Notes under the pieces: model-generated
What the model saw: the letters and a program-made list of their open reading frames with translations, nothing else
The model's database searches: none
What the model was told of the DNA's origin: nothing
Made by a program: the position numbers and the translations under genes
In this document: in pieces, positions 122 through 9,348 of the stretch
How the letters are laid out: the number at the start of each line of letters is the position of its first letter
How positions within the stretch are numbered: position 1 is the stretch's first letter
Source: an uncultured Treponema sp.
Lineage (GTDB): Bacteria; Spirochaetota; Spirochaetia; Treponematales; Treponemataceae
NCBI GenBank assembly: GCA_905236315.1
Contig: CAJOPO010000493.1
Coordinates: 1 to 10,314, forward strand
Reading direction: 5' to 3'
DNA: 10,314 bases

Positions 122-152
122 TATAAAAAATTAGCAAATTGTGTATTTTTAT

Positions 153-181
153 TTGACTTAACTCTATATATGGTGTATAAT
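153..181 (+). promoter_or_regulatory. Strong sigma70-type promoter for the small-RNA candidate
   Basis: The -35 box TTGACT (153-158; 5 of 6 to TTGACA) and the -10 box TATAAT (176-181; 6 of 6) are separated by exactly 17 nt. This is the best promoter match in the window. The predicted transcription start is about 187-190, just before an 11-bp hairpin. The first plausible protein start downstream is at 326, and a terminator lies between, so the promoter appears to serve a short RNA rather than the operon. Confidence 0.82.
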
Positions 182-191
182 TTTTAATAGG

Positions 192-218
192 TTCAGTATA
201 GATTTATTCTATATTGAA
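192..218 (+). repeat. 11-bp inverted repeat / 5' hairpin of the small-RNA candidate
   Basis: TTCAGTATAGA (192-202) and TCTATATTGAA (208-218) are complementary along all 11 positions, with one G-U wobble (196 with 214), around the loop TTTAT. Only one run of T follows (TTTC), so it is a poor terminator. Lying right at the predicted transcript 5' end, it could protect the RNA. As DNA it is also a near-palindrome just downstream of the promoter and could be an operator. Confidence 0.7.
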
Positions 219-232
219 TTTCTCCCACCTAT

Positions 233-275
233 GCTCTGTCAGTTTTCCCACTAATCCCGCTGGCAGGGCTTTTTT
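233..275 (+). terminator. Rho-independent terminator
   Basis: GCTCTGTCAG (233-242) pairs with CTGGCAGGGC (260-269) over 10 consecutive positions, including two G-U wobbles, followed directly by six T (270-275). The 17-nt loop is long for a terminator and C-rich, which may mean that it also has a recognition role. It lies 50 nt upstream of the start codon at 326, so transcripts from the 153-181 promoter should mostly stop here. It may also end readthrough from the gene closing at 121. Confidence 0.78.
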
Positions 276-286: not shown

Positions 287-315
287 TTGACACAATATTA
301 GATTTAATAGATTAT
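287..315 (+). promoter_or_regulatory. Probable promoter of the four-gene operon
   Basis: TTGACA (287-292) is a perfect -35 box. With a 17-nt spacer, the -10 position is GATTAT (310-315), 4 of 6 to TATAAT with the key A2 and T6 present. The predicted start is about 321-323, only 3-5 nt before ATG 326. The -10 box is weak; TATATT at 313-318 would need a 20-nt spacer. Confidence 0.5.
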
Positions 316-325
316 ATTTCCATAT

Positions 326-985
326 ATGGAACCTTCGTTGTTATCTCGGCAGTATTTAGAATCAGCTTCTACAGCAGATTTATTATCTCTAGCCGATGAT
401 TATGGAATAGATATACCAGATAATTTAAATAGACGATTTATAATAGGTGAACTGTTAGAACTAGCAGAGGAATTGCACTCTGAAAAAGAAGAAGTTCCCC
501 TAAAAGAAGATAACCAACCAGAAATAACAGATTTACCACTCACTTATAATGAAACACAAATTTGTGCCATAATGAGAACTCCACAATGGCTTTTTGTGTA
601 CTGGGACATGGGAGAGGCAGAAAAACTCGCTCTCATAGCAGAAAGTTCATTTAAAGGCTTCTTCTTGCATGCTGCTTTTTTTGATACAGAAGACGCAGAA
701 CTTCCTTCTGATTCTTTTGATATAAAAATAAACCCTAACGATAGGGAACAATATGTTCTTATTCCTAATCATATAAAGTTTTGTGAAATAAGTTTAAATT
801 GTGATAGAGGTCCTACAAGAACCTTATTTATGGCAGGAAGTAGAAGGATAGCTATTCCACAGGAAAACATGCAAGTTCAAAACATAAAGCCAGGAAGGCA
901 AATAGAATTAAGCGAGCAACTAAAGTTATCTGGTATGGAAGATTTACTAAAAGACCAATATATGAATAGAAGAGAAATTTTTTAA
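326..985 (+). CDS. DUF4912 domain protein with N-terminal Rho_N/SAP-like helical segment
   Basis: This 219-residue protein has no signal peptide or membrane segment and should be cytoplasmic. Residues about 8-50 (YLESASTADLLSLADDYGID through FIIGELLELAEEL) form a short helix-turn-helix-like segment resembling Rho N-terminal/SAP modules that touch nucleic acid. Residues about 75-185 match DUF4912: the signature PQWLFVYWD (86-94) with W93-D94, and the late strand pair TRTLFMAGSRRIAIP. DUF4912 has no established biochemical function; it is often found next to GH57/DUF1957 genes, as here, which suggests a shared role in alpha-glucan metabolism or its control. ATG 326 is the only in-frame ATG after the TAG at 308, and the MEPSLLSRQYLES start looks natural. 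There is no Shine-Dalgarno sequence upstream (TTTCCATAT), and the predicted transcript start is only a few nt away, so translation may be leaderless. It is first in a tight operon; its stop overlaps the next gene's ribosome binding site. Confidence 0.85.
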   Translation: MEPSLLSRQYLESASTADLLSLADDYGIDIPDNLNRRFIIGELLELAEELHSEKEEVPLKEDNQPEITDLPLTYNETQICAIMRTPQWLFVYWDMGEAEKLALIAESSFKGFFLHAAFFDTEDAELPSDSFDIKINPNDREQYVLIPNHIKFCEISLNCDRGPTRTLFMAGSRRIAIPQENMQVQNIKPGRQIELSEQLKLSGMEDLLKDQYMNRREIF

Positions 986-990
986 GGAGG
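984..990 (+). promoter_or_regulatory. Strong RBS that fixes a TTG start
   Basis: AAGGAGG is a full-strength Shine-Dalgarno sequence, 7 nt before TTG 998. It overlaps the TAA stop (983-985) of the preceding gene, implying coupled translation. Its strength and spacing are the reason for accepting the rare TTG start. Confidence 0.85.
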
Positions 991-997
991 AAGCGTT

Positions 998-2590
998 TTG
1001 CCTAATAAAGACCTTATTCTAGTTATTTCTTGCGAACAGGGTTATATACGAAATGCAGAAGACATAGATACATTTTACGCACAAAACGATATTCTTTTTT
1101 CTTCAATTTCTGATACCTATCTTCCACTTTTAAATTTGTTTTCAAAATTGGAAAAAGAAGAAGTACCTTTTAAGATTGGTTTAGTTATAAGTCCTGCTTT
1201 ATGCACATTGCTTTCTGACCCCATTGTTCAAAAACAATATGTAGATTATCTTGAAAGAAGAATTGCATTAGGTAATGAAGAGTTAGAAAGATGTAAAGAT
1301 AATCCTAAATTATTAAAAATAGTAAAGGCAAGTGTAGAAAAGCTTTTAAAAGATAGACTAGACTTTACAGAAACATATTCTTCAAATATTTTAACGCCAT
1401 TAAGACACTTAGCGTCAAAGGGATATTTGGAATTAATTCCAACAAGTGCAACTTATGCCTATCTACCCCACTACGAAGACCTTGAAGAAGTGCTAAATGC
1501 ACAGATAGAAACAGGATTAAACGCTCAAAGATACTTCTTTAAAGACGCAGGAGATGGTTTCTTTTTGCCAGAACTAGGCTGGACAAATAATATAGATAAG
1601 GTATTACGCTCCTATAATATAAATTATACTATTGTAGATACAAGAGCGGTTTTATTTTCTTCTACTTTGCCAGAAAATGGAATCTTTGAACCTGTAAGAA
1701 GCAATCATTCTCTAGTATTATTCGCTAGAGATAGAGAAACACCTAAAGATATATGTGACGAAAATGGTTTTATGTATAATAAAGTATATCGTTGCCAACA
1801 AAGGGATATAGGTTTTGAGCTAGATAGCAAAGAACTTGATGATTTTTTAGGTAGGGATAAGGCAAGAGTACAAACAGGTTTTAAATATTGGGCAAATAGC
1901 GAAAATGAAAAAGAAGAAATTCTTTATGATAGTGAAAAAGCTAAAGAGCAAGTAAAAAAAGATGCACTTAGCTTTTATGAATCAAAGAAAAATAGATTGA
2001 ATAAAGCTTCTAAGATAATGGAAGAAAAAAATGCAATGCTATTGTGCGTTATCTCTTCACGCTTTTTAGGGCAAATATGGCACGAAGGCATAGACTGGCT
2101 AGAAGAAGTAATACGTCTTATAGCAAAGGAGCAAGAAATAAAACTTTCTTTATGCAAAGAACACTTACAAGACCAGTTTAATATGAAAAAGATTTCTGTA
2201 TATCCCTGTGCTGCAAGTGGAACAGGTTATGCAGAAGACTTACTTGATGGCTCTAATAGCTGGATGATTCGCTACATAAGAAAGGCTAGCGAACGTATGA
2301 TTGATTTAACAGAACGATTTCCTTCAGAAACAGGTTTAAAATCTCGTCTATTAAACTTAGGTGCACGAGAACTTCTTTTAGCACAGTCAAGTGACTGGTC
2401 TAAAATGATTCAAGAAGGAAAACTACCTGATTATGCAAGAACAGAGTTTAAGAAAAGCATACTTTCTTTTTCTAAGGTATTTGACTCTCTTGCAAGCAAT
2501 ACAGTAAGTACAGAATGGCTTATCAATATGGAAAAAGAACATCCGATATTTCCATGGATGAGTTATAGAATATTTAGCAGAAAAAAATAG
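998..2590 (+). CDS. GH57/DUF1957 branching-enzyme-like protein with degenerate active site
   Basis: This 530-residue cytoplasmic protein has the GH57 alpha-glucan branching enzyme layout and near-normal length. The nucleophile motif is kept: GFFLPELGW (187-195) with Glu192, corresponding to the family's WLPE motif. The stretch leading to it (GYLELIPTSATYAYLP, 142-157) and the late SSDW motif (464-467) are also recognisable. Other catalytic positions are lost: the N-terminal H-x-H-L-P-Y-V-R motif reads SCEQGYIR (11-18), the ATH His is Tyr153, and the general acid/base Asp before the G-H-W-W-x-E-G block is Ser353 (SSRFLGQIWHEG, 353-364). Family knowledge predicts little or no transglycosylase activity. 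I infer a glucan-binding or regulatory role, or altered chemistry, probably with the DUF4912 partner 12 nt upstream. The TTG start is set by AAGGAGG at 984-990. The fold assignment is firm; the activity is not. Confidence 0.82.
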   Translation: MPNKDLILVISCEQGYIRNAEDIDTFYAQNDILFSSISDTYLPLLNLFSKLEKEEVPFKIGLVISPALCTLLSDPIVQKQYVDYLERRIALGNEELERCKDNPKLLKIVKASVEKLLKDRLDFTETYSSNILTPLRHLASKGYLELIPTSATYAYLPHYEDLEEVLNAQIETGLNAQRYFFKDAGDGFFLPELGWTNNIDKVLRSYNINYTIVDTRAVLFSSTLPENGIFEPVRSNHSLVLFARDRETPKDICDENGFMYNKVYRCQQRDIGFELDSKELDDFLGRDKARVQTGFKYWANSENEKEEILYDSEKAKEQVKKDALSFYESKKNRLNKASKIMEEKNAMLLCVISSRFLGQIWHEGIDWLEEVIRLIAKEQEIKLSLCKEHLQDQFNMKKISVYPCAASGTGYAEDLLDGSNSWMIRYIRKASERMIDLTERFPSETGLKSRLLNLGARELLLAQSSDWSKMIQEGKLPDYARTEFKKSILSFSKVFDSLASNTVSTEWLINMEKEHPIFPWMSYRIFSRKK

Positions 2591-2593
2591 GAG
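2589..2593 (+). promoter_or_regulatory. RBS overlapping the previous stop, setting a GTG start
   Basis: AGGAG sits across the TAG stop (2588-2590) of the GH57-like gene, 6 nt before GTG 2600. It supports this GTG as the start of the lipoprotein and coupled translation. The nearby ATG at 2610 is out of frame. Confidence 0.75.
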
Positions 2594-2599
2594 ATATTA

Positions 2600-4744
2600 G
2601 TGTGGAGTAAATGCTGTATATATTCAGCATATTCAAAAGTATCATATCTAATATTAACACTGCTCTGCTTTTATGTATGCTATTTTTGTGTAAGTTGTGC
2701 CACTACAGGAAACACTACTTATAAAGAGAGTGCATTACAAGAACAACAAGATACACCTATAAATCTTGACGAAGAAAATGCACAAAGTCTTTTACGCATA
2801 TTAGTTAAACAAATAGAAGAAGCTAATACTCTTGAACAAACTGCAAAATTACAAGAAATTACTCAAAAACTTCTATTAAAATACAAGCAAGAAAATATAG
2901 AAATAAACGAAGATAGTTTAAAATCCTGCCTTAATATAGTGCTTCTTGCACAAGAGGGCTTTGACCTTAGTATAAAGTTTTGTAGCGAGGATAATATTAT
3001 ACAAGATTTCGACGAAGCACAAACTAAGGCCTCCTTAAACTATATAGAAGCCTCTAAGCGTTTTTCTTATTTAAGTGACAAAACAGAGGAAGAAAAACTA
3101 AAACTACAAGGTAATGACTCTCTTTCAAAAGCTCTATTAGATTTATGTTCGAGACTTAAAGAATCTTATGCAGAAAATACTTACACAGCAATAATAAATG
3201 CAGTTTGTAGAAGTATAGATTCAGGTATATTTCTTTATGAAAATAATAAAAATATGTACGAAGAAGCTCTATCTTTTATTCCGCTAGATAAGGAACAAGA
3301 GCAATATCCTAAAAAAGCTTCTGTAATACTGCAAAATTGTCTTAATAATATTAATTTAAGTTTAAAATTATTAGATGAAAGTAATAATGCTTGTATAAAG
3401 GCTATAAACGAATTATCTAATATTAATGATGGTTTTATTACAAAAAGAGTTTATGATTCCATATATCTAATAACAGAATTACAAGGTTTAACAACGAAAC
3501 TTGCCGACACTGCTCGCGTACAACAAAGAAGTGCATTAACAGCAAGGAACGAAGTTCTTCTATATTATAGGCAATCAAAAACAGCCTACGAAGCTGGTTA
3601 TAATGAAAGAGCACAAAATCTTTTAGACCGAGCCTTAAGTGCCTATGACAATGCCATTACAACAATACGCCTAGATACAGAAACTCAAAATGAAGTTTAT
3701 TCACAAATAGCAGAATTAAGGCAAAAGATTGCAGAAACACAAAGACCGCTTATAATAAAAGAAATGCGACAATTTAAAACAGAAGCACGACAGGCATACT
3801 TTGCAGGTAATTTTGAAGAAGCAGATAACATTCTAACACAGGCAGAAAAGCGTCTTGAAAGTTGGACTCTCTTTATGGATATTGAAGCAGAAAAAGATGA
3901 AGAGCTAGAACGCCTTAGAGGTATGGTTAATACAGCCCTTAGGATAGAAAGTGGTCGCACCTTAAACCCAAATAATGCGCTATATCCAGAAATGTCTCAA
4001 CTTTTAACTATAGCAAATCAATATTACATAACAGGGAGTGCTCTTATAAAAAACAATAAAAGAGCCGAAGGAGAAAAAATTCTACAAACAGCAAAAGAAA
4101 AACTAAATGATTTAAGAGTAGTCTATCCCCATAATCAAGAAGCAAATCTTTTATCAATGAAAATAGACCAAATATTAAATCCTAAGCAATTTAGTCAAAC
4201 TTTTAGTACAAAAATAGAGGAACTAAAAAAAGTAAATTATTCAAAACAAGATACAACTGCCCTAACCGCTTATAGTGATTTGAGGGATTTATATGAAATT
4301 GAACCAAATTATAAGGACTTACAAGCGTTTATTGAACAAGTAGAGATAGATTTAGGCATTAGGCAGCCACCTATAGCAGACTCTAGCGCAGAAGAAGCTC
4401 AAGCTCTTGCAGAACAAGCTATGGAAATAGTACAAAATACAGGAAGAGACGCGCTTCAATTAGAAAGTGCAAAAACTCTAGCATATAGGTCTATTGCAAT
4501 CGACCCCAATAATGAACTTGCAGTTCAAGTTTTAGATGAAATTGCATTGCGCACAGGAACACAATCGGCCGTTGTGCTTAGTGCAGCAGATGAAGCTAGA
4601 TACCAGCAAGCTATTACTTCATTACAAAGTGGTAATATAGTTTTTGCAGCAGCAATATTACAAGACTTATTACAAAATCCTGCAAATAGGCGTTCTGCAA
4701 AAATACGAAAGTTACAAGGGCGCATAGAAGGACTTTTGCAATGA
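2600..4744 (+). CDS. TPR-repeat lipoprotein, probable partner of the sensor phosphatase
   Basis: The 714-residue product starts with a basic n-region (two Lys before residue 14), a hydrophobic core (about 14-32) and a candidate lipidation site, CVSC with Cys33 followed by ATTGN. Cys at -3 departs from the classic L-A-G-C box, but spirochaetes tolerate loose lipoboxes. The signal region is oddly rich in Cys (5, 6, 23, 27, 30, 33). The rest is almost all helix. TPR-like helical hairpins are visible near residues 320-352 (YEAGYNERAQNLLDRAL), 391-420 (YFAGNFEEADNILTQAEKRL), 464-525 (ending in a P-H-N-x-E-A capping motif), 630-660 and 668-700 (LQSGNIVFAAAILQDLLQ). TPR arrays bind proteins, so I infer an envelope scaffold or adaptor. 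The 4-nt ATGA overlap with the phosphatase gene argues for a stoichiometric partner. The N-terminal third (about 50-300) resembles nothing I recognise. Confidence 0.8.
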   Translation: MWSKCCIYSAYSKVSYLILTLLCFYVCYFCVSCATTGNTTYKESALQEQQDTPINLDEENAQSLLRILVKQIEEANTLEQTAKLQEITQKLLLKYKQENIEINEDSLKSCLNIVLLAQEGFDLSIKFCSEDNIIQDFDEAQTKASLNYIEASKRFSYLSDKTEEEKLKLQGNDSLSKALLDLCSRLKESYAENTYTAIINAVCRSIDSGIFLYENNKNMYEEALSFIPLDKEQEQYPKKASVILQNCLNNINLSLKLLDESNNACIKAINELSNINDGFITKRVYDSIYLITELQGLTTKLADTARVQQRSALTARNEVLLYYRQSKTAYEAGYNERAQNLLDRALSAYDNAITTIRLDTETQNEVYSQIAELRQKIAETQRPLIIKEMRQFKTEARQAYFAGNFEEADNILTQAEKRLESWTLFMDIEAEKDEELERLRGMVNTALRIESGRTLNPNNALYPEMSQLLTIANQYYITGSALIKNNKRAEGEKILQTAKEKLNDLRVVYPHNQEANLLSMKIDQILNPKQFSQTFSTKIEELKKVNYSKQDTTALTAYSDLRDLYEIEPNYKDLQAFIEQVEIDLGIRQPPIADSSAEEAQALAEQAMEIVQNTGRDALQLESAKTLAYRSIAIDPNNELAVQVLDEIALRTGTQSAVVLSAADEARYQQAITSLQSGNIVFAAAILQDLLQNPANRRSAKIRKLQGRIEGLLQ
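4727..4732 (+). promoter_or_regulatory. RBS of the sensor phosphatase inside the lipoprotein gene
   Basis: GAAGGA lies 8 nt before ATG 4741, within the last codons of the lipoprotein gene. With the ATGA stop/start overlap at 4741-4744, this indicates translational coupling. Confidence 0.65.
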
Positions 4745-7700
4745 GAAGATACTTTGCATTTATATTTTTACTTTGCACTCTTTCATTAGCATATACGCAA
4801 AATTTATATTGGGAACTTCCTCGTACAATAACAGATGAAAATATTGATTGTCGCTACCCTACCACACTCTCTTGTATTCCATCTTCAAATAATAAAAAAC
4901 GAAATCCTATTTCCGCTATATTTTGGGAAGAGATAGACAGTCAAAATAAAGAAATATATCTTAATATTAGCACAACACGAAACGGCTTAAAATGGAACGA
5001 AGCAAAAAGATTTTCTTCCCCATTTGTATATTATAATGAAATCCCAGAGATATATTCAGCAGCAATAAATAAATATGGAACCATTGTTGTAGCAACATTA
5101 AATAATTCATCACAAATATCTGTATACACTTCATATAATGAAGGGGACTCTTTTGAAATTCATACCTTTGATAATGACATAGGAATTTTAGTAGGTCCTA
5201 GAATATTTGCAACAAAAAACGATGGTTTTATAATATTTTGTACAAGAAGCTATAATGAAACCTTTTCTTTGCTTTATACGTCTTCTAAAGATGGAAAAAA
5301 CTGGACAGAGTTTAAAGAATTTCCTTTTGCTGTAGAAAATGCTTCTAATCCACTTGTTCCATATTTAGCTTCTATAGACAACGGAGATATGTTAGTCCTA
5401 CAAGCACATTATATCTCTGACAGTCGCCTTACATTTCAAATATACACTGCATTCACAAATGATAATGGTCAAAATTGGACAGAAGCAAAAATAATAAAAA
5501 CCTCTGAAGATTTTGATTCGTACAATAACCAACACCCAATGATTTTGCAATATCAAAAAAAAATATATATGATTTGGGAAAGAAGCTCTTATGCAAGTTC
5601 TCAAACATCAATATATGCTTCACAAATAAGTGCGTCAGGTGAAATAAAAGGAAAAATAGAAGCTCTTAACCAAAATGGAGAATATAACAATCCCCTACTA
5701 TTCATCTATAATGACCAGTTATACGCCCTATGGTCAGACTCTAAGGGCAGTAGAAATAATGTATATATGACGCATAAACTTTCTAGTTTTTGGGACGAAG
5801 CTAAAGTAATAATACAAAATACAGCAACTTCTACATATCCTGTGATTTCTGCAAATGGCAAAGAGCTTTCTTTTATATGGCAGCAACATACAGAAGATAA
5901 GGTTAATGCTTACCAAATAGCAATACTAGAAAAAGACTCTAGTTGCCCTCCCCCTATTATAGAAGGTTTAGACTTTAATAACGGAGACTTTGGTCATTCC
6001 TCTGAATTACGCGCTAAACTTGTAGAAACAGAAGATTCATCTGGAATAATGGGATTTTCTTGTATATGGACAAGAGATATTAATGAAGAACCTATAAATG
6101 AAATTTCTAATATGCTACAAGAAAGTAATATTTCAAAAATTGCAGATGAAGATGGAATATGGTATTTAAAAGCAAAGCAAGTAGATTTTGCAGGTAACTG
6201 GTCTCAAAGCACTACATTTGCTTATACAAGAGATACGGTTTCTCCAGAAGTTCCTATACTTACAGGTTTAGATGATATAGAAGACTTAGATAAACTAGGT
6301 TTAGTTAAAAGCAATACATTTAAACTTCAATGGAACAGCGAAGATGATAATATAGGAGGTTATGAGTGGAAACTTGAATATTTAGATTCTATACCTCTAT
6401 CGCTTGCAGAAAATAAAAGGCATCCATTAAAGATAAGTAAGGGTTATGCACAAAAATTAATTGATGAAATAAAAGAAAAATATGCCGAAGACTTAGAAAA
6501 TCTGCAACCAGAAAATACTGAAGAAGAAAAGAAACAGAAAGAAATAAGATTTAATAATGCAAGAAATGGAGTTTATGCTTTTGTACTAAGAACGCTTGAT
6601 AAGGCAGGGAATAAAAGCCCTTATATACGCACCCTATTCATTCTAAATAAATATGATCCTATTACCTCCATTACAAGCATAAAATCACAGATAAATAAAT
6701 TTGGAGATTTATCTCTTAGCATAATAGGACAAAACTTTACCTACGATGGTACAATATCAGAAATATATATAGATAAAGATAAAGAAGAACCTTATGATTA
6801 TATTCTATCTACACAAAATGGAGACTATGTAATAAAATCTAATAACCGCATAGAAGACATTACTCTTCAAAATATAGAAGCGGGCAATTATTATATAGGG
6901 CTTTTACATAGTGATAGAGGTTTATACTTTACAGATAAATCTGAATTAAAAATACAAGAACACGGAACTGTAAAAACATTTACAAAATTTACATTTATAC
7001 CAGAATGGAATTTTCTACGAAAGGATTATTCTATGGGGAAAAGACTTTCGTATATTTCTATAATATTAGTTTCATTATTTACTCTATGGATATTCATAGT
7101 TGCATGTAGAGGGCTATATAAAGCAACGGAACAAAGCATAACAACACAAGCAGAAATAAAAATGATTACTAAAGGCAATATCATGAAAAGAAAAGACGTT
7201 GGCTCTAAAAAACTAAATCACAGTGGTATAAGTTTACGTGTAAAACTTATGGCTTATACAATGGCAATAATATTAATAATTGTTTCCACTCTAGTTACAG
7301 TATTAAGCTACATAATGATTAATCGAGAAGAAAGTACAATGGTAAAAAGCCTTCTTGAACGTACTAATGTTATTCTTGATTCTATGTCTAATGGTGCTAA
7401 AAATAATTTGCCAAATGCTTCTTCTAATTTACTTGCATTAAGCGACCTTACAGAAGAATCTCAAGCCCTCTCTGATGCAGAATTTGCCATTATTACAGGT
7501 AAATCTTCATCAGCACAAGATAACAATATTGATTATATATGGGCTTCTAACGCTCCTGATATAACGCAAAAGATAAATACAGAAGCACTTATACTAGGAG
7601 AAAGTCGTTTTATATCAGAAGAAGCCCTAGCTGCAACCAAAAACTATTCAATACTAGAGGAAATGGCAAAACAAGAAGTAGGAAAAACTGCATTACAAAT

Positions 7701-9348
7701 AGATGAACTTACAGAAGAAGGGCTCTTTTTAGCAAGACAAAGTACAAACAGAAACTCTCCACAGGCAAAAAAGAATTCAGAAAGGCTACAGGAAATAACA
7801 GAAATAACTACACAACTTAATAAAAGGTTAGACAGCATACTAGACCAAATAGCAACAGAAAACACAGGTAGCTACCCGCCATTTAATAATACTAAAATTG
7901 ACCTTGAAAATACAACTTATCTCTTTTATCGTCCTGTACTATATCATCACAGTGGCGAAAACTCTTATGTACACGGAGTTGTATTTATTCAAATAAGTAC
8001 ACAAGCCCTTATTAACCAAATGAATGAAGCTCGCGCTGCTATATTAAAAACAACTATCGCTATAATAATACTAGCGTTTATAATAGGACTTTTAAGTGCT
8101 ACAGCAATGTCTGCGCTAATAGTAAGCCCCATAAACAAGCTTGCCCGCCATGTAGCAATGATACGTGATACAGAAGATAAAGAGGCACTAGCAGGAAAGG
8201 ATATTAGTATTCATAGCCATGATGAAATAGGTATGCTTGGAGATACTGTGAACGAAATGACGCACGGTCTTGTAGATGCTGCTTTACAAGCTAAAAATCT
8301 AACCGTTGGTAAAGAAGTACAAACAAAATTTATTCCATTACAGACAGACGAACGCGGAATAACATTAACAACAGGAGCTATGCAAGATAACGGCATTGAG
8401 TTTTTTGGATATTATGCAGGAGCAGATGAACTTTCAGGGGACTATTTTGATTATAAAAAACTAGATGATGACCATTATGCAATCATAAAGTGCGATGTTT
8501 CAGGACACGGAGTTCCTGCAGCATTGATTATGGTAGAGGTAGCAACACTATTTTTAAATTCATTTAATGGTTGGAGTATGTCTAATCCTGCACAAGGAAC
8601 TAATCTAGGACCTGTAGTTGGACAAATAAATAACTTACTAGAAAGCAGAGGCTTTAATGGACGTTTTGCGGCTTTTACCTTAGTATTGATTAATACTAAA
8701 ACTGGTGAATGTTGGTTTTGTAATGCAGGAGATAATATAGTACAAATATATGATGGTGCAAGCCATAAGAAAAAAATAATTTCCCTTCCAGAAACACCTG
8801 CAGCAGGTATGTTTAGCACTGACTTAGTAGACATCAAGGGAGGATATAAAGTTCAAAAATTAAAATTAAAGAAAGATGATGTTTTATTCTTATATACAGA
8901 CGGTATAGAAGAATCTAAAAGAAATATTCGTACATCAGACGGAAATATTATTGTAGACGCTAGTGAAGAAATGAGTGGAGAGCGCGTAAAAGATATAATC
9001 GAAGCCGTTTATAATAAAGATACCTATGTTCTTAATAAGCAAGGAGATAATGAAGTGTTAAATTTTGATTTTTCTACTTGCGAAGGTAATGCAGAAGATG
9101 CAATTATGGCCTTAGTAAGTATAGAAAAAATATTTAGGCTTTATCGCCCTCTATCTCCTAAACATTCAGACCGCATACGTGTAGACAAAAAAATTGATAA
9201 CTTTTTAAGATTGCACTTTAAGGAATACAGTATATATTGCAAAGACCATTCTTCTATAGAAATGGACCCTGTACATATTTTTTATAACGGCGTTACAGAA
9301 GATGCCCAATATGATGATTTAACTCTTGTGGCTATCAAGAAAAAATGA
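4741..9348 (+). CDS. Giant transmembrane sensor: propeller/Ig/TIG ectodomain - HAMP - PP2C/SpoIIE-type phosphatase
   Basis: The protein has 1535 residues. Residues 1-19 are a signal peptide. About 30-400 resembles a sialidase-type beta-propeller with Asp-box motifs at 77-85, 130-138, 181-188 and 239-246 (S/T-x-D/N-x-G-x-x-W/F). Two Ig-like segments (about 403-500 and 503-635) each end in a D-x-A-G-N-x-S motif, and 641-750 looks like an IPT/TIG domain. Transmembrane helix 1 (769-789) leads to a basic linker (790-836); helices 2 (837-860) and 3 (1104-1127) flank a cache-like sensor. HAMP follows (P1130, DEIG at 1161-1164). The phosphatase keeps all four expected metal-binding Asp: D1234 (SGDYFDY), D1252 (CDVSGHG), D1387 (YTDGIEE) and D1526 (DDLT), so it should be active. 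The usual substrate of this family is a phosphorylated anti-sigma-factor antagonist; none is encoded here. About 135 residues separate the last two Asp, far more than usual. The gene is coupled to the lipoprotein by a 4-nt overlap. Confidence 0.85.
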   Translation: MRRYFAFIFLLCTLSLAYTQNLYWELPRTITDENIDCRYPTTLSCIPSSNNKKRNPISAIFWEEIDSQNKEIYLNISTTRNGLKWNEAKRFSSPFVYYNEIPEIYSAAINKYGTIVVATLNNSSQISVYTSYNEGDSFEIHTFDNDIGILVGPRIFATKNDGFIIFCTRSYNETFSLLYTSSKDGKNWTEFKEFPFAVENASNPLVPYLASIDNGDMLVLQAHYISDSRLTFQIYTAFTNDNGQNWTEAKIIKTSEDFDSYNNQHPMILQYQKKIYMIWERSSYASSQTSIYASQISASGEIKGKIEALNQNGEYNNPLLFIYNDQLYALWSDSKGSRNNVYMTHKLSSFWDEAKVIIQNTATSTYPVISANGKELSFIWQQHTEDKVNAYQIAILEKDSSCPPPIIEGLDFNNGDFGHSSELRAKLVETEDSSGIMGFSCIWTRDINEEPINEISNMLQESNISKIADEDGIWYLKAKQVDFAGNWSQSTTFAYTRDTVSPEVPILTGLDDIEDLDKLGLVKSNTFKLQWNSEDDNIGGYEWKLEYLDSIPLSLAENKRHPLKISKGYAQKLIDEIKEKYAEDLENLQPENTEEEKKQKEIRFNNARNGVYAFVLRTLDKAGNKSPYIRTLFILNKYDPITSITSIKSQINKFGDLSLSIIGQNFTYDGTISEIYIDKDKEEPYDYILSTQNGDYVIKSNNRIEDITLQNIEAGNYYIGLLHSDRGLYFTDKSELKIQEHGTVKTFTKFTFIPEWNFLRKDYSMGKRLSYISIILVSLFTLWIFIVACRGLYKATEQSITTQAEIKMITKGNIMKRKDVGSKKLNHSGISLRVKLMAYTMAIILIIVSTLVTVLSYIMINREESTMVKSLLERTNVILDSMSNGAKNNLPNASSNLLALSDLTEESQALSDAEFAIITGKSSSAQDNNIDYIWASNAPDITQKINTEALILGESRFISEEALAATKNYSILEEMAKQEVGKTALQIDELTEEGLFLARQSTNRNSPQAKKNSERLQEITEITTQLNKRLDSILDQIATENTGSYPPFNNTKIDLENTTYLFYRPVLYHHSGENSYVHGVVFIQISTQALINQMNEARAAILKTTIAIIILAFIIGLLSATAMSALIVSPINKLARHVAMIRDTEDKEALAGKDISIHSHDEIGMLGDTVNEMTHGLVDAALQAKNLTVGKEVQTKFIPLQTDERGITLTTGAMQDNGIEFFGYYAGADELSGDYFDYKKLDDDHYAIIKCDVSGHGVPAALIMVEVATLFLNSFNGWSMSNPAQGTNLGPVVGQINNLLESRGFNGRFAAFTLVLINTKTGECWFCNAGDNIVQIYDGASHKKKIISLPETPAAGMFSTDLVDIKGGYKVQKLKLKKDDVLFLYTDGIEESKRNIRTSDGNIIVDASEEMSGERVKDIIEAVYNKDTYVLNKQGDNEVLNFDFSTCEGNAEDAIMALVSIEKIFRLYRPLSPKHSDRIRVDKKIDNFLRLHFKEYSIYCKDHSSIEMDPVHIFYNGVTEDAQYDDLTLVAIKKK

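Follow-up and report, generated by a model that had tools for sequence, protein, structure and literature searches.

In a 10,314-nucleotide (nt) stretch of DNA from an uncultured Treponema sp. (CAJOPO010000493.1), positions 188..275 of the plus strand encode a small RNA (sRNA) with a predicted length of about 88 nt, a stand-alone gene of a real family in Treponema. The stretch, which we call the window, is a complete contig (G000:C493) of a 2.57 Mb source genome in 546 contigs. Between the −35 and −10 hexamers of the sRNA promoter lies a palindrome of the kind associated with NrdR, the known repressor of ribonucleotide reductase operons, and the same motif occurs upstream of nrdD and nrdR in related genomes. 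We propose, with a probability of roughly 60%, that the sRNA is repressed by NrdR, is made together with the reductase NrdD when deoxyadenosine triphosphate (dATP) is low, and acts on ribosome-binding sites through C-rich motifs without Hfq. Papers are cited by PMC accession.

Results

A small RNA gene with its own promoter and terminator

An earlier note on this DNA had described a compact RNA of about 87 nt with no open reading frame (ORF), enclosed by a near-perfect promoter and a terminator and independent of the operon that follows. The observation of an sRNA gene is confirmed, and its interpretation as an independent RNA is supported. The promoter, with TTGACT at 153..158 and TATAAT at 176..181 on the plus strand, spaced by 17 bp, is the sole 11/12 match in the window. 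Promoter-like sites over the whole window stand at chance level (42 observed vs. 45.0 expected), and the weight of the site at 153–181 therefore rests on its conservation: TTGAC[A/T] together with a −10 hexamer at a spacing of 17–18 bp was counted in 23/23 relatives.

The RNA has a predicted 5′ end at about 187–190 and a 3′ end within a T6 tract, and a covariance-model match extends from 188 to 276 with 85.2 bits. Nucleotides 187–275 fold at −30.9 kcal/mol, as compared with a shuffled mean of −13.7 (standard deviation 2.7; z −6.3), a value equalled by none of 200 shuffles. The 5′ hairpin occupies 192..218, with arms at 192–202 and 208–218, and is followed by a linker carrying the motif UCCCAC (223..228) and by an intrinsic terminator (233..275). 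The T6 tract (270–275) is as originally described, while the terminator stem has 11 bp (233–243 with 259–269) instead of 10. Its 15-nt loop region holds UCCCAC at 246–251 and UCCCGC at 255–260 (246..260 together). The terminator is missing from the terminator-scan list because that scan accepts only loops of 3–8 nt. A strict absence of ORFs did not hold: a 7-codon ATG frame (231–254, read by eye) and a 61-amino-acid TTG frame (214–399, in the ORF list) exist in the region. The RNA of 13/23 relatives contains no ATG at all and there is therefore no conserved ATG-started frame, on which ground a small protein product was rejected.

Distribution of the family

When 59 genomes, the own one among them, were searched at the DNA level, relatives turned up in 2 more, in each case on a different contig from that of the DUF4912 match. 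A covariance model built from these three sequences was then used to search 200 genomes of the genus, yielding 23 loci at ≥44 bits in 23 genomes (L066–L088), which are the loci counted throughout. At an E-value of 0.5 there were 41 matches in 38 genomes. The 24th, at 39 bits in G133, is that genome's same terminator again, truncated where a contig stops; it was taken as a contig overlap and not counted separately, leaving one locus per genome. The other 17 were dropped as chance, seven (L089–L095) after inspection and ten without it. With a second model (R2), 20 of 390 genomes of the order match at E 0.05, of which 11 are strong and all within the genus, the rest having E-values of 0.0035 or worse. 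Three of the weak matches were inspected, two from outside the genus (L173, L175) and a second weak one in G081 (L183); no box was present in any of them and L183 alone has a short CCCAC-like loop. A search of viral contigs for the sRNA loop gave 0 matches.

No family in Rfam 15 reaches its gathering score in the window, and the loci of four relatives give just two tRNAs; membership in a known family, which had not been recognised in the earlier note either, was accordingly rejected. The closest resemblance is to PsrR1 (RF02701), which shares an unpaired UUCUCC stretch ahead of the terminator, but at 25.1 bits the match falls short of the gathering score, which is 42, and PsrR1 is by name a photosynthesis RNA.

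Conserved structure and C-rich motifs

Minimum-free-energy folding gives the 23 members a common layout: the 5′ hairpin comes first, then the linker, and last the terminator hairpin, whose loop measures 13–19 nt. UCCCAC is found in the linker of 22/23 members and in the terminator loop of 23/23, where it is followed by a second UCCCAC-like motif. Among the listed members, only G165 carries UUCCCAC in the 5′ loop, a motif not present there in the window.

Covariation analysis, named in the earlier note as a check, bears out the hairpin at the 5′ end: its stem shows compensatory changes, and both hairpins are kept in the 23 members. In an alignment of 15 sequences, both sides had changed in 10 of the 11 5′-stem pairs, and the share of paired cells was 86.5%, vs. 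33–45% for slid structures. The slid structures still keep 6–8 pairs changed on both sides, compared with 11 for the real one, because alignment of the 5′ stem is poor among distant members. A subgroup of the 8 closest sequences gives a cleaner count, with 99.4% of cells paired and 4 pairs changed on both sides (0–1 in slid versions); both tested structures were drawn from the same sequences, which somewhat favours them. The RNA has several features of a trans-acting sRNA, namely its own promoter, its own terminator, no conserved ATG-started frame, and exposed, conserved C-rich motifs in the linker and terminator loop.

An NrdR-type operator within the promoter

The palindrome in the promoter, a feature absent from the earlier note, which made no regulatory assignment, was first recognised as NrdR-like and then tested. 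Box 1 (ACTCTATATATGGTGT, 161..176, plus strand) lies in the −35/−10 spacer and has the highest matrix score in the window (19.2, the next being 8.9, with a matrix that includes this box). A 16-bp palindrome close to ACRCTAYATATAGTGT occupies the same spacer in 23/23 members, the boxes having been placed with a matrix derived from these members, and its C4 and G13 are invariant in all of them. Changing the conserved GC pairs of an NrdR box, at these two positions, strongly weakens binding (PMC9110341), and for this reason the invariance of C4 and G13 is counted in favour of NrdR.

For a genome-scale scan the matrix was built from 15 sRNA boxes of other genomes, leaving out G202 and G155, and applied to 2.23 Mb of these two. 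The six top-ranking sites (22.6 to 17.1 bits) were, in order, nrdD of G202, nrdD of G155, the sRNA of G155, the sRNA of G202, a second nrdD site of G155 and nrdR of G202, with rank 7 at 15.9; all of the nrdD and nrdR sites are located upstream of those genes. Four box pairs at offsets of 20–59 passed the cut, belonging to the sRNA of G202 (43), nrdD of G155 (32), nrdR of G202 (41) and nrdD of G202 (31). Within these genomes, the sRNA and the reductase genes have the box motif of their promoters in common. In the window's own genome, a pattern search allowing ≤3 mismatches gave 156 matches vs. 120 in the control, and the closest match (1 mismatch) was the sRNA box, the pattern being derived from the sRNA family itself. 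The same genome has a pyruvate formate-lyase-like (pflB-like, PF02901) gene (L125:2-1342, minus strand; G000:C392) preceded by two NrdR-like boxes at L125:1501–1516 and 1542–1557, 41 bp apart, with scores of 16.1 and 11.0.

A second box, CACTATTT, is present at +42/+43 from box 1 in 16/23 members, within the downstream arm region of the 5′ hairpin, leaving 26–27 bp between boxes; by mean score, +43 ranks first among 94 offsets. NrdR binds well at a box spacing of 14–17 bp and has a second optimum at 24–27 bp (PMC12051234). Three members (G077, G197 and G183) have a box-like stretch at −31, with 15 bp between boxes. In G012, G089 and G133, the stems of which have diverged, ACACTATTT is still found exactly at +43, and its retention there suggests a constraint on the DNA. 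A possible upstream half box in the window (129..144, plus strand, with a TTGTGT half), 32 bp before box 1, is weak (score −5.3) and speculative.

NrdR scored above cut-off in 22/24 genomes, own included, and in 18/20 sRNA carriers, and the class III reductase NrdD was matched in 14/15 genomes (12 above cut-off). The class I/II reductase large subunit was found in 0/15 genomes. Hfq (PF17209) was found in 0/30 genomes by a search that detects it in 5/14 controls.

Searches for targets

Long complements of the sRNA loop, searched in 10 genomes, exceeded the control in 2 (own genome, 23 vs. 14; G118, 29 vs. 26) and were below it in 8. A scan of start regions covered 1,946 called genes and 278 ortholog pairs in two partly covered genomes. 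The best ortholog pair was metK, at −31.0 vs. −27.5 for the reversed control, a result mostly due to G155. Six single start regions beat the best of the reversed control (−16.9), one of them in a doubtful frame. Upstream of mraW, GGGTGGGA or GGGTGGGG, matching the sRNA linker, was found in G155, G005, G136, G208 and G202 among 16 carriers examined (L309:15901-16902, minus strand, and L334–L337). GTGGGAA lies farther upstream of mraW in G165, and GGTGGGA occurs in G100, one of 5 genomes without the sRNA. The mraW match is at most a sub-clade lead, reflecting a sub-clade target or chance. The upstream neighbour gene of the sRNA has an AG-rich start region with no conserved site.

Discussion

A model for NrdR control of the sRNA

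Sensing of dATP and repression by NrdR are taken from literature on other bacteria. When dATP is plentiful, NrdR with dATP and adenosine triphosphate (ATP) would bind the box between −35 and −10 and block RNA polymerase, in many relatives probably with the help of a second box at a distance of three or four helical turns. A drop in dATP would lead to production of the sRNA along with NrdD and NrdR. The RNA of about 88 nt would then present the UCCCAC motifs of its linker and terminator loop for pairing with G-rich ribosome-binding sites, and this pairing may lower translation of some messenger RNAs (mRNAs) without Hfq, as a response to deoxynucleoside triphosphate (dNTP) shortage.

The candidate operator resembles those of the NrdR regulon (PMC9110341, PMC12051234, PMC12176259, PMC3848588) in its palindrome, which is that of nrdD and nrdR in the same genomes, in its location over the promoter and, in relatives with a probable second box, in box spacing; it differs in that the regulated gene is a non-coding RNA. 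No NrdR-controlled sRNA was found in the open-access NrdR literature consulted, subscription papers lying outside its scope, and in PMC12051234 and PMC4898720 the sole mention of sRNA or small RNA sits in the reference list. The proposed mode of action has a precedent in LhrC1-5 of Listeria monocytogenes, in which redundant CU-rich motifs (CUCCC), placed in loop A, in the linker and in the terminator loop, bind the start region of an mRNA without Hfq (PMC4132741); FsrA, which is also named in that paper, has UCCC motifs. Compared by features and not by sequence, the two RNAs share C-rich motifs in the linker and terminator loop. LhrC additionally carries a motif in loop A, whereas a 5′-loop motif occurs here in G165 only, and LhrC is multicopy and under LisRK (PMC4132741), whereas the Treponema sRNA has one locus per genome and an NrdR-type box.

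Several observations weigh against the model. The assignment of the motif to NrdR is anchored in its occurrence at nrdD and nrdR; the matrix scan behind that anchor took in about 45% of G202 and about 22% of G155. At the nrdR-nrdD locus of the own genome (C201), the best box score in the available stretch is 4.1, which is not a good box. The search for NrdR came up empty in two carriers, G012 and G133, whose assemblies are both in pieces. The +42/+43 copies lack G13, and a second box is missing at that position in 7/23 members, including the window; G005 and G155 have none there. In the window the second box is degenerate (scores −8.8 and −3.1), and the window therefore shows one good box. With regard to pairing, GTGGG was found within −250..+60 of nrdD in 2/20 loci (with rough start calls), which speaks against nrdD as a general target, and GTGGGA was not enriched at gene starts (25th of 30 permutations). 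The loop-complement, nrdD, start-region and mraW searches gave no convincing shared target, and mRNA pairing is for that reason the weakest step of the proposal.

Alternative explanations

The repetition and strong conservation of UCCCAC, together with the failure to find a target, would also fit an NrdR-controlled RNA that serves as a protein sponge or scaffold, with UCCCAC as a protein site and no mRNA pairing. We regard this as unlikely, since mRNA-pairing sRNAs of low-GC bacteria typically expose C-rich motifs (PMC4132741) and six start regions, the one in a doubtful frame among them, exceed the best of the reversed control. A genuine sRNA whose palindrome is read by a repressor other than NrdR is a distinctly unlikely case: binding of NrdR to the sRNA box is predicted, two carriers of the sRNA have no nrdR that was found, and a comparable pair of boxes precedes the pflB-like gene of the own genome, but the top motif matches lie upstream of nrdD and nrdR, at box distances that suit NrdR, and C4 and G13 do not vary.

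Two further explanations concern the flanking genes. The sRNA lies directly upstream of a same-strand DUF4912 gene in the window and 6 relatives, as would be expected if it served the DUF4912 operon as 5′ leader or attenuator. In 16/23 loci, however, a same-strand DUF4912 gene is not the next called gene (one of these, L083, stops at a contig end), and between the sRNA and that gene stand a complete terminator and a second promoter. The latter, which in the window is a promoter-like site (TTGACA-17-GATTAT, 287..315, plus strand), is consistent with the earlier claim that the next gene has its own −35 box beyond the terminator. DUF4912 genes without a preceding sRNA carry their own TTGACA (e.g. 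L007, L008), and the varied neighbourhoods and these independent promoters led us to reject the leader interpretation, which we consider very improbable. The independence originally claimed for the RNA fits a family present in 23/200 genomes of the genus and followed by same-strand DUF4912 in 7/23 loci only. A terminator that serves only the upstream hypothetical gene, and yields no separate transcript, could account for the presence of that same gene, on the same strand, in 14/23 loci; this reading is scarcely credible given that promoter, operator and 5′ hairpin are also conserved, even in loci without the hypothetical gene. An sRNA controlled by NrdR and acting on ribosome-binding sites is the explanation that we favour.

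Genomic context

In the window, the sRNA sits between a lysine-rich frame that enters from the contig edge (1–121, read by eye) and the DUF4912 gene (326–985). The latter begins a row of genes (326–9348) comprising DUF4912, glycosyl hydrolase family 57, one gene without assignment, and a BNR/HAMP/SpoIIE-domain gene. Named relatives of the window's DUF4912 gene belong to Treponema and other Spirochaetes, several from ruminant forestomach samples, and the sRNA is present in 4/31 of these loci: L035 (Treponema sp. UBA4232), L038 (uncultured Spirochaetaceae RUG11787), L043 (Treponema sp. RUI133) and L054 (Treponema sp. UBA4307). The upstream hypothetical gene (L003:1698-2453, minus strand) has no Pfam or NCBIfam match above cut-off, and the window's copy is lysine-rich at its end. 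L085 (G118:C225) has a single same-strand row made up of nrdR, the hypothetical gene and the sRNA, with 747 bp between nrdR and the sRNA.

Implications

RyhB, FsrA and IsrR are iron-repressed sRNAs that answer to iron through Fur. The Treponema sRNA would resemble them as the sRNA arm of a nutrient- or metabolite-sensing repressor, and would differ in its signal, which would be dATP sensed by NrdR rather than iron sensed by Fur. By analogy with Fur-dependent iron sparing, we tentatively suggest, at somewhat less than even odds, that the NrdR regulon of Treponema has an RNA arm, in which an sRNA induced together with the class III reductase on a drop in dATP reprograms translation without Hfq in a dNTP-sparing manner. 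The sRNA represents a new family in Treponema. If the model is correct, a regulatory RNA is added to the NrdR circuit, so far known for control of enzyme genes, and this dNTP-sensing repressor would also act post-transcriptionally, in bacteria in which no Hfq was found. The short gene offers a handle on what cells turn down when DNA precursors are scarce.
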